Of a stretch of DNA of 37,100 bases, positions 8,127 to 10,999 are shown piece after piece. Origin of the DNA: Lentilactobacillus dabitei (lineage in GTDB: Bacteria > Bacillota > Bacilli > Lactobacillales > Lactobacillaceae). Within the stretch, counting starts at the first letter, position 1, and each line of letters begins with the position of its first letter. The translations under genes were made by a program, and so were the position numbers. Where the stretch lies: NCBI RefSeq assembly GCF_019061365.1, contig NZ_JAHPPD010000017.1:1-37100 (forward strand), given 5' to 3'. A model generated the notes under the pieces. The model ran no database searches. It was not told the origin of the DNA and saw only the letters and a program-made list of their open reading frames with translations.

Positions 8127-9824
8127 ATGTTACTTGAACTATCAATTACTGATTTTGCGATCATTGAATATTTAGACATTGAATTTCAAGCAGGCATGAC
8201 GGTGTTAACTGGCGAAACCGGTGCCGGCAAATCGATTATTATTGATGCGGTCGGGCTACTGGTTGGTGGCCGTGGTTCCCACGATTTGATTCGAACCGGC
8301 GCGAAAAAGTCGGTCATTCAGGGTAACTTCATCCTCCATAATGACAATCCTACATATGCTGTTTTAGATGACCTTGGGATTGATCACAGCGATGGTAACG
8401 TGATTATTGAACGCGAAATTTTTGCAAACGGGCGCAATAGTTGTCGGGTGAATGGGATTATGGTCAATATTGCATCGTTGAAACGAATTGGCGAAACCAT
8501 TGTCGACATTCAAGGACAAAACGAACACCAGGAATTAATGAAGCCGGAACGGCATATTCAATTACTAGACGATTTTGCGGAAGACGAATTGCAATCAGTT
8601 TTAAGTTCTTATCAAGAAAAGTATGACAAATTCATCAAACTTCGAGCACTCAACGAGAAAAAACATCAAAATGAAAAACAGTGGGCCCAACGGGTAGACA
8701 TGCTTAAATTCCAAATTAAAGAGATTGAGGCCGCTGACTTACATGAAAATGAAGATACCGAGCTAACGGCTGAACGCGATCATCTTAACAATTTTCAAAA
8801 AATTCATGATTCCTTATTGAGCAGCTATGAAGGAATCAACGGTGACGATTCGGGACCTTTGGATTCAATTGGATCAGCAATGAGTTCAATGCAAGAAATT
8901 GAAGACCTAGATCCAGACTACAAGCAAATTTCTGACAATTTATCCGGGGCGTTTTTTACACTTCAAGATGTTGCCAGTCAAATTTCCGATCAGTTAAGCA
9001 GCTTAGAGTTTGATCAGGATCGACTTGATCAAGTTGAACAGCGGTTAAATACGATTTACCAGTTGAAACATAAGTACGGTGATTCTGTCGATCAAATTCT
9101 GAAATACCTGAAAAAAATTCAAAAAGAATTAGCGGATATGTCTGGAACGGTCAGTGAAGATCAAGATCTTGACGAGCAATTAACCACGATCAAAGCATCC
9201 TTGATCAAAGATGCCAAAAAAATCAGTGACATCCGGCGCAAGTCTGCTAAGGAATTGGAAAATGCGGTTCATCATCAATTAGCGGATTTATACATGGATA
9301 AGGCTGTTTTTGAAGTAAACATCAAGCAAAATACCGCACTTAACCGGCTGGGTGCTGACCGGGTTGAATTTTATATTCAAACCAATCCGGGAGAAAAAAT
9401 GTTACCCTTGGTTAAATCAGCTTCTGGTGGGGAACTGTCTCGTATTATGTTGGCATTAAAAACGATGTTTGCAAGGGCTGCCGGGGTCACCTCGATCATT
9501 TTTGATGAAGTAGATACAGGTGTCTCTGGTCGGGTCGCTCAGGCAATTGGTAATAAAATTTATACGATTTCAACCAAGTCCCAGGTGTTATGTATTACAC
9601 ATCTCCCACAAGTTGCCGCAATGAGTGATCATCACTATTTTATTGAAAAAAAAGTAACCGACAACCGAACCACTACGACGATTACCGAACTGACTGCCAA
9701 ACAGAGTGTGAAGGAAATTTCCCGGATGTTGGCTGGAACGGCTGTTACCAAATTAACTAAGGAACATGCTCAGGAACTCCTGAATTTGGCAGACGAGGAA
9801 AAGGTTAAAATTAGTCAGGATTAA
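8127..9824 (+). CDS. recN: DNA repair protein RecN
   Basis: RecN is an SMC-like ATPase acting early in double-strand-break repair. The 565-residue protein has Walker A GETGAGKS (29-36), a central coiled coil (about 155-370) with a short hinge, and the C-terminal half of the ATPase: signature SGGELSRIMLALK, Walker B IIFDEVDTGVSG and the ITHLPQVAA switch. It is slightly longer than the Bacillus protein. The ATG follows GAAAGGG. I see no SOS box upstream, although the next gene on the other strand has one. recN closes this operon. Confidence 0.96.
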   Translation: MLLELSITDFAIIEYLDIEFQAGMTVLTGETGAGKSIIIDAVGLLVGGRGSHDLIRTGAKKSVIQGNFILHNDNPTYAVLDDLGIDHSDGNVIIEREIFANGRNSCRVNGIMVNIASLKRIGETIVDIQGQNEHQELMKPERHIQLLDDFAEDELQSVLSSYQEKYDKFIKLRALNEKKHQNEKQWAQRVDMLKFQIKEIEAADLHENEDTELTAERDHLNNFQKIHDSLLSSYEGINGDDSGPLDSIGSAMSSMQEIEDLDPDYKQISDNLSGAFFTLQDVASQISDQLSSLEFDQDRLDQVEQRLNTIYQLKHKYGDSVDQILKYLKKIQKELADMSGTVSEDQDLDEQLTTIKASLIKDAKKISDIRRKSAKELENAVHHQLADLYMDKAVFEVNIKQNTALNRLGADRVEFYIQTNPGEKMLPLVKSASGGELSRIMLALKTMFARAAGVTSIIFDEVDTGVSGRVAQAIGNKIYTISTKSQVLCITHLPQVAAMSDHHYFIEKKVTDNRTTTTITELTAKQSVKEISRMLAGTAVTKLTKEHAQELLNLADEEKVKISQD

Positions 9825-9905: not shown

Positions 9906-10211
9906 CTAAAACTTTTTGATTGCTTGGATTTCATTGATCGAGAAAATTCGCGTAAAATGATTGTCAGCCGATGTGATTAAAAGGCGACGGTCACTAATCT
10001 TTGAAAGATAGCCAGCTGAATCGGGCGTATGATCGTTAAATTGGACGATAATTGGGAACTTTTGACTTAAAGCTTTATCAATGTAGACGTCTAATTGAAA
10101 GGTTGGCATTTGTTTGACCTGGGTATTATCTGTTACGAGATCAAAGAAACGATTGTAATTGTTTTTAACAGATTTAGTGATTTCCGATAAATAGGATTGT
10201 TTGTTTTGCAT
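9906..10211 (-). CDS. SOS-regulated small protein of uncertain family (possibly YolD-like / Sm-like fold), 101 aa
   Basis: I do not firmly recognise this protein. The start ATG (10211) is six bases after GGGGTG; an in-frame GTG at 10220 lies in that ribosome binding site. Residues 1-30 look helical and polar. The rest reads as a small beta barrel: FPIIVQFNDHTPDSAGYLSKISDRRLLIT and FTRIFSINEIQAIKKF, the second ending resembling YolD-like proteins, which often accompany Y-family polymerases. That link is tentative. Its promoter holds a perfect LexA/DinR box in the spacer (10250-10263) and a near-match downstream (10223-10236), so damage induction is well supported. It is the only gene between recN and gmk and has its own terminator. 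No polymerase gene is nearby. Confidence 0.8.
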   Translation of the reverse strand: MQNKQSYLSEITKSVKNNYNRFFDLVTDNTQVKQMPTFQLDVYIDKALSQKFPIIVQFNDHTPDSAGYLSKISDRRLLITSADNHFTRIFSINEIQAIKKF

Positions 10212-10222
10212 TTTGTTCACCC

Positions 10223-10236
10223 CGAACGTTTGTTTG
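10223..10236 (-). promoter_or_regulatory. Second, imperfect LexA/DinR box
   Basis: CGAAC-GTTT-GTTTG (plus strand) differs at one position from the symmetric CGAAC-N4-GTTCG. It lies just downstream of the predicted start of the 9906-10211 transcript, 27 bp centre to centre from the perfect box, and borders the ribosome binding site. It could give tighter repression through two operators. Confidence 0.5.
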
Positions 10237-10243
10237 TAGTTTC

Positions 10244-10272
10244 ATTATACGAACAACTGTTCGAAATTGCAA
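10244..10272 (-). promoter_or_regulatory. Promoter of the SOS-box gene
   Basis: On the minus strand TTGCAA (10272-10267) and a perfect TATAAT (10249-10244) are separated by exactly 17 bases. The LexA/DinR box occupies 14 of the 17 spacer bases, so bound repressor would directly exclude RNA polymerase. Confidence 0.8.
10250..10263 (-). promoter_or_regulatory. LexA/DinR SOS box
   Basis: The plus strand reads CGAAC-AACT-GTTCG, a fully symmetric match to the Firmicutes LexA (DinR) operator core GAAC-N4-GTTC with flanking C and G. It lies between the -35 and -10 boxes of the minus-strand promoter. Confidence 0.88.
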
Positions 10273-10384: not shown

Positions 10385-10999
10385 ATGGCTAAAAGAGGAA
10401 TGTTGATTGTTTTGTCAGGTCCATCAGGAGTTGGTAAGGGAACAGTCAGAAAAGCGCTGTTTGAAGAACCAGATGTTGATTTTGAATACTCAACGTCGAT
10501 GACGACCAGGGAGCCCCGCCCTGGTGAAAAGAATGGTGTCGACTATTATTTTGTTTCGAAAGAACAGTTTGAGAAGAACATTCAAGATGGTGAGATGCTT
10601 GAATACGCAAAATACGTTGACAATTACTACGGAACGCCATTAAAATATGTTAATGAAACGTTGAATTCCGGTAAAGATGTCTTTTTGGAGATTGAAGTGA
10701 ACGGTGCCATGCAGATTCGGGCCAATTGTCCTGATGCAGTATTTGTGTTCTTAACCCCACCAGACCTTATGGAATTAAAGCACCGTTTAATTGGTAGAGG
10801 GACTGACGAAATGGACGTGATCAACCGTCGAATTAAAAAAGCCGTTGGTGAAATCAGCATGATGCGAAACTATGATTATGCGGTTTTGAACGACAAAGTT
10901 CCTTATGCCGTTGATCGAATTAAATCAATTATCAGAAGTGAACGATTAAAAGTTGCTCGGGTGATGCCCGATTATGAATCAATGTTAGGAGAAGATTAA
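10385..10999 (+). CDS. gmk: Guanylate kinase
   Basis: Guanylate kinase phosphorylates GMP to GDP with ATP and is essential for GTP supply and for clearing (p)ppGpp-related nucleotides. The 204-residue protein has P-loop GPSGVGKGT (12-20), the GMP-binding [18 protein letters not shown] segment, and the lid [19 protein letters not shown] lies eight bases before the ATG. It is followed after two bases by rpoZ, a conserved pair. A strong promoter at 10321 drives both. Confidence 0.96.

Follow-up and report, generated by a model that had tools for sequence, protein, structure and literature searches.

Genes of the SOS response that lie outside the core repair functions are often lineage-specific and unnamed. 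For the Lactobacillaceae, a study of regulons in lactic acid bacteria arrived at 13 predicted LexA target operons (PMC3616900). In Lactiplantibacillus plantarum WCFS1, the gene lp_1611 has been on record since 2007 as carrying a LexA-DinR motif and as strongly induced, 32.9-fold, by peroxide; it adjoins the opu (glycine-betaine) genes in the opposite orientation, and in the part of that account that concerns it, it is treated as a single hypothetical ORF of unknown function (PMC2174512). Among small SOS proteins, YqjX, YolD and YozL (PF08863) are described as putative counterparts of UmuD, and YolD was found to co-occur with its polymerases in all but three of 207 cases (PMC6511836). YolD has been assigned to the WYL-like superfamily of Sm/SH3 barrels (PMC6511836, PMC4012209). 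Here we describe a small gene of Lentilactobacillus dabitei that can be compared with both systems, and for whose family a literature search found no published treatment.

The gene lies in a window of 37,100 nucleotides, the whole stretch of DNA analyzed here, and encodes 101 amino acids on the minus strand (9906..10211, with the ATG start codon at 10211 and the stop codon at 9908-9906). The ORF listing offers an alternative start, GTG at 10220, giving 104 amino acids; we prefer the ATG because it suits the ribosome-binding site and the homologues. The first-pass annotation of this stretch had described a minus-strand promoter with a perfect palindrome in its spacer, a second box one base off, a good ribosome-binding site and a terminator, and each of these elements was recovered at the expected place. 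The -35 hexamer TTGCAA (10272-10267) and the -10 hexamer TATAAT (10249-10244) are separated by a spacer of 17 bp, which is filled by O1, a perfect LexA box of the form CGAAC-N4-GTTCG at 10250..10263 (CGAACAGTTGTTCG, read on the minus strand from 10263 to 10250); the -10 hexamer follows O1 directly. A second LexA box, O2, of the form CAAAC-N4-GTTCG, occupies 10223..10236 (CAAACAAACGTTCG, read on the minus strand from 10236 to 10223) and has one mismatch. Judging from the -10 hexamer, O2 would sit at the start of the transcript. It has one base in common with the ribosome-binding site GGGGTGA (10223-10217), which precedes the ATG. Beyond the 3' end of the gene is a terminator-like hairpin on the minus strand (9879-9850) with an 11-pair stem; shuffled sequences gave 0.4 such hairpins on average, compared with this one. 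The flanking genes are both on the plus strand: recN (8127..9824; SMC_N/AAA matches), which converges on the small gene, and the guanylate kinase gene gmk (10385..10999; PF00625), which diverges from it.

Conservation of this arrangement was assessed in 46 homologous loci from 18 genera. These came from 25 of the 26 genomes found to carry the gene (its own included), from 20 further stretches picked from the best-scoring listed profile matches, and from Lactiplantibacillus pingfangensis (L119); the 26th genome (G033) is represented by a longer stretch. One of the 47 loci gathered (L026) was removed as belonging to the same genome as another (L154). The loci are not independent, 24 of the 46 being from the genus of the window; genera g4, g3 and g114 contribute three, two and two, respectively. 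Operators and neighbours were examined in 18 genera out of the 25 in which the profile had a match; the weakest matches are those of the other seven (g9, g110, g112, g113, g116, g118 and g131). One locus (L017) ends at a contig edge; it is counted among the 46, and excluded from the 45 loci in which the operators could be assessed and from the 45-sequence profile described below.

In all 45 assessable loci an O1-like box (GAAC or AAAC-N4-GTTC) abuts the -10 hexamer, which reads TATAAT in 40 and TATACT in five, and a TTG precedes the -10 at a spacing of exactly 17 bp. A search of the assessable homologues for one lacking the box therefore found none. O2 is recognizable in 43 of the 45, a tally that leaves out the O2 of L147, where the ORF start was placed too early. 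Both boxes are present with no more than one mismatch in 42 of the 46 loci, and the pitch from O1 to O2 is 27 bp in 37 of these 42, with values of 28, 29 or 34 bp in the others. The boxes of L142 and L147 have two mismatches, and a locus from a 1.2-Mb genome (L025) has kept O1 and lost O2. Across the same loci, identity to the window protein drops to 18%. Ratios of dN/dS were 0.03-0.06 in four of the six pairs tried, values that are rough, since two of these pairs have a dS above 1.5. A two-operator promoter of fixed design through all the genera examined is a new observation.

Taken singly, the LexA box is not significant in either the window or the genome. The window holds 11 sites with two mismatches or fewer, against 13.45 expected. 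No perfect box other than O1 occurs in the 2.81-Mb genome, where base composition alone predicts about 1.6, and the same pattern read backwards, used as a control, gave seven perfect matches. Sites with one mismatch number 39 genome-wide, against 149 for the backwards control. Besides the lexA site, O1 and O2, the surroundings of 14 of the 39 were viewed, and several of these 14 fall inside ORFs and look like chance occurrences. O1 and O2 are the only pair lying within 60 bp of each other among the 39 genome sites with at most one mismatch. These single-box statistics are what might favour reading O1 and O2 as chance boxes, or as boxes of another regulator. That reading would have to account for a geometry that does not vary in any assessable locus, for the agreement of the boxes with those near lexA, recA, uvrB and other genes, and for the published induction of lp_1611, and we regard it as hardly credible; chance is excluded by the position of the boxes together with their conservation across homologous loci.

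The genome encodes LexA, and a LexA-like box (CGAACGTGTGTTTG) is found upstream of lexA itself. Boxes with one mismatch are present upstream of recA, uvrB and prophage-type integrase ORFs (all three named by eye). A Y-family polymerase gene (Pfam IMS) and a yolD-like gene are preceded by one-mismatch boxes too, and in these two cases the box likewise lies between the -35 and -10 hexamers. The proposal that O1 and O2 are LexA/DinR operators thus gains the support of a LexA gene with a like box, of similar boxes at other SOS genes, and of an operator over the promoter that is kept in relatives. We regard LexA regulation of the 101-amino-acid gene as near certain, with binding by LexA itself predicted from the boxes.

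The published gene lp_1611 resembles the window gene in its LexA motif and in its neighbourhood: in L. pingfangensis the homologue is flanked by gmk and, at its other end, by OpuAC and permease genes on the opposite strand, recalling the opu genes beside lp_1611. On the evidence of neighbourhood and box, lp_1611 is probably the orthologue of the 101-amino-acid gene. What sets the present description apart from that report, as far as its treatment of lp_1611 goes, is the predicted fold, the family, the second operator and the distribution, all described here for the 101-amino-acid family. The first-pass annotation had also called the protein damage-induced. The induction of the probable orthologue supports this, with the reservation that the 32.9-fold figure was measured with peroxide rather than with a specific DNA-damaging drug, and the window gene is very probably turned on by DNA damage via its two conserved LexA sites, a conclusion carried over to L. 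dabitei from L. plantarum.

A single-sequence search of 60 relatives identified the gene in 26 genomes, including all 24 from its own genus, and the nearest named homologue is that of L. rapi (98% identity). With a profile of 23 sequences, the family was detected in 209 of 350 Lactobacillaceae genomes, representing 25 of the 40 genera sampled. The remaining 141 genomes gave no profile match; in these the gene is either dispensable or too divergent. The locus had been described as a conserved junction beside recN. The junction is indeed conserved, and recN was seen in 38 of the 46 loci within flanks of 1.5-3 kb, but the constant neighbour is gmk, which is found on the opposite strand in 45 of the 46.

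Modelling with AlphaFold2 from 14 sequences (mean pLDDT 85.9) predicts helices at residues 4-22 and 37-50 and strands at 53-58, 65-71, 77-80, 86-90 and 95-100, the five strands apparently forming an Sm/SH3-like barrel over residues 53-100. Conserved positions include a QMPxxQ motif at residues 34-39 (Q34-M35-P36 and Q39), F43 (a tyrosine in the window protein) and G67, which may mark a working surface. Searches of Pfam and NCBIfam identified nothing for the window protein, and an alignment of 23 members gave only scattered weak matches to Pfam, NCBIfam, PADLOC and PHROGs, the most frequent being phrog_12716 (unknown function), matched by 4 of the 23 members with a best E of 3.2e-4. A sequence search of the PDB returned nothing below E 0.1, and no phage match was obtained by tblastn. 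Matches of the latter on three Rhodococcus plasmids, two of them annotated as TerD family, had E values of 0.07-0.3 and are read as chance.

In a Foldseek search with the model, the 50 best PDB rows were all Hfq proteins, with a best E of 2.4e-3 and thus no match at E <= 0.001; a viral structure library gave three matches at E <= 0.001, none of them informative. Structural comparison likewise placed Hfq first (Z 7.2, rmsd 2.2 over 62 residues, for residues 38-101 of the protein), followed by designed barrels (Z 6.6-6.9) and by the WYL proteins DriD and PafBC (Z 6.3-6.4), which are tied with other small barrels. Values of Z below 8 may reflect only the common small-barrel arrangement. The likeness to DriD and PafBC, which is seen in structure comparison only, is confined to the barrel; unlike these proteins, the 101-amino-acid family has no DNA-binding domain fused to it.

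Profile comparison with hhalign points to YolD. Against an alignment of 27 YolD proteins, 23 members scored 33.3 (E 1.7e-5, 68 columns) and 45 members scored 37.7 (E 3.6e-6, 73 columns), with probabilities of 78% and 87%, which is not equivalent to a match with a curated family. With the columns of the YolD alignment shuffled, the highest scores were 13.8 (60 shuffles, 23 members) and 13.0 (100 shuffles, 45 members), and the reversed YolD alignment scored 12.7. Against Hfq, the 23 members scored 23.3 and the 45 members 25.2, where shuffles rose to 18.0 and 22.7, respectively, and the probabilities were 15-25%. Because the YolD scores far exceed those of the shuffles, the barrel is predicted to be a distant relative of YolD. 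The suggestion that the C-terminal half is a small barrel of the YolD or Sm-like kind is therefore supported by the model, by the Foldseek/VIA matches and by the shuffle-controlled profiles. The two families differ in charge. The median pI is 9.3 in 46 members, compared with 5.5 in 27 YolD proteins, 8.3 in 25 Hfq proteins and 6.1 in 27 proteins of the window; because the values within the family range from 5.4 to 10.9, its basic charge is a tendency only. A divergent kinship with YolD, accompanied by this change of charge, is the prediction that is new here at the level of the protein.

This kinship raises the question of whether the protein is a YolD-type (UmuD'-like) subunit that serves a Y-family polymerase, UvrX-like or other, in trans in translesion synthesis. 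The profile similarity spans the barrel, both families consist of small SOS-controlled proteins with a helix and an Sm/SH3-like barrel, the Y19xxFF stretch of the 101-amino-acid family might be what remains of the YolD KWxxYF stretch (by eye), yolD genes located away from a polymerase are known in staphylococci (PMC6511836), and the genome of the window encodes two UvrX-like polymerases with which the protein might act. On the other hand, that genome already has two YolD homologues of its own, one of which (at L060) has an intact DRGMMKW and a LexA-type box. A strict DRGxxKW-like motif is present in none of the 46 family members and in 11 of the 27 YolD proteins, and a looser pattern in 3 of 46 and 18 of 27, so that YolD proteins do not all carry it either. 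Pfam YolD (PF08863) is not among the 12 families matched at E <= 10 by any of 23 members, nor did it match anything in the window's own genome; since the model also misses that genome's yolD-like gene (L060:3222-3587), it is not sensitive here and under-counts YolD. An AlphaFold2 model of that YolD-like protein, made without an alignment, had a pLDDT of 33.7, which is too poor for a comparison of models. The 46 loci (195 kb) contain no Y-family polymerase ORF, in agreement with the absence of an adjacent polymerase noted from the window alone, and the place of the 101-amino-acid gene is fixed beside gmk. Two genomes that carry the gene, G007 and G020, yielded no UvrX-like polymerase and no YolD; the match that remains in each is weaker and DinB-like (G020 is 88% complete). 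Assuming that both searches drew the same 350 genomes, gene and UvrX-like polymerase occur together in 173, the gene only in 36, the polymerase only in 105 and neither in 36, so that the polymerase is found in 173 of 209 carriers of the gene and in 105 of 141 non-carriers (odds ratio 1.65, p 0.08); put the other way, 105 of 278 polymerase carriers do without the gene, and 36 of 209 gene carriers without the polymerase. Polymerases were counted at E <= 1e-40 with a single query, a cut-off at which very distant ones could be missed. This loose co-occurrence, unlike the near-perfect one published for YolD, shows that the gene is independent of the polymerase, with no tight linkage, which is a further new observation, and a role as a polymerase subunit appears unlikely.

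The solved folds closest to the protein suggest instead an RNA-binding, Hfq-like post-transcriptional regulator, acting in the SOS response of a lineage without Hfq. The best solved-structure matches, to residues 38-101, are Hfq proteins, the pI is mostly basic as well, and the Hfq model found nothing in the window's own genome or in three others of the order (G039, G044 and G047), whereas it detected Hfq in 55 of the 57 remaining genomes of the class. Such a role is rendered decidedly improbable by the YKH-like motif, which occurs in 25 of 25 Hfq proteins and in none of the 46 family members, by the extra N-terminal helix, by a weak profile match that barely passes its shuffles, and by Z values tied with those of other small barrels, including designed ones. 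The protein might also be an SOS checkpoint factor, a SulA- or YneA-like inhibitor that blocks cell division or replication from within the cytosol. A small division inhibitor is commonly induced in Firmicutes, and the ORFs beside lexA (L043) include no obvious yneA-like gene (by eye only). YneA-type inhibitors are membrane proteins, whereas no membrane segment is evident by eye in the 101-amino-acid sequence, whose barrel is confidently modelled; we consider the checkpoint role very unlikely.

We conclude that the 101-amino-acid gene is a functionally uncharacterised SOS gene, with a YolD/Sm-like barrel predicted for its product. The reading we favour, with moderate confidence, is that it constitutes a single-gene SOS unit and that its product is a stand-alone, nucleic-acid-binding effector rather than a fixed subunit of a Y-family polymerase. 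LexA bound at O1, between the -35 and -10 hexamers, and at O2, over the expected transcript start, would exclude RNA polymerase; DNA damage would lead to RecA-stimulated cleavage of LexA and release of the promoter. Together the two operators would make repression tight and induction strong, which is what the figure for lp_1611 suggests. The product, a small and mostly basic protein with helices and an Sm/SH3-like barrel, would represent a divergent branch of the YolD/WYL-like superfamily and would act alone at breaks or damaged forks, where its target would be single-stranded nucleic acid or a complex of nucleic acid and protein. From the fold, the charge, the regulation and the independence from polymerases, we infer that its likeliest activity is to bind either nucleic acid in single-stranded form or a repair complex. 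A bolder version, which we hold to be possible but doubtful, is that a YolD-derived barrel freed from the polymerase and turned basic forms rings as Sm and Hfq proteins do, and coats or remodels single-stranded DNA or RNA after damage, as an effector shared throughout the Lactobacillaceae and acting in bacteria without Hfq.

The family is present in 25 of the 40 Lactobacillaceae genera sampled and the operator-promoter design in all 18 examined, yet none of the libraries searched has a name for it. The protein may be an unrecognised damage-response factor. A YolD-type barrel that exists apart from translesion polymerases allows a function of its own, such as nucleic-acid binding, to be tested directly. 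The promoter is also a candidate reporter of DNA damage for industrial and probiotic lactobacilli.

Several observations were made on the polymerase and YolD genes themselves. The best UvrX-like polymerase matches in four relatives (G008, G009, G011 and G021) each contain one in-frame stop, hinting at decay or at a start-site artefact. In the genome of the window, the second UvrX-like polymerase gene (contig C146) has a YolD homologue nearby. The SOS genes for the other UvrX-like polymerase (L059, on contig C171) and for the YolD-like protein (L060, on contig C217) are unlinked. These two have 36 bp in common, with two differences, just upstream of and extending into their promoters, as if a control region had been copied or the two genes had once been joined as a pair.
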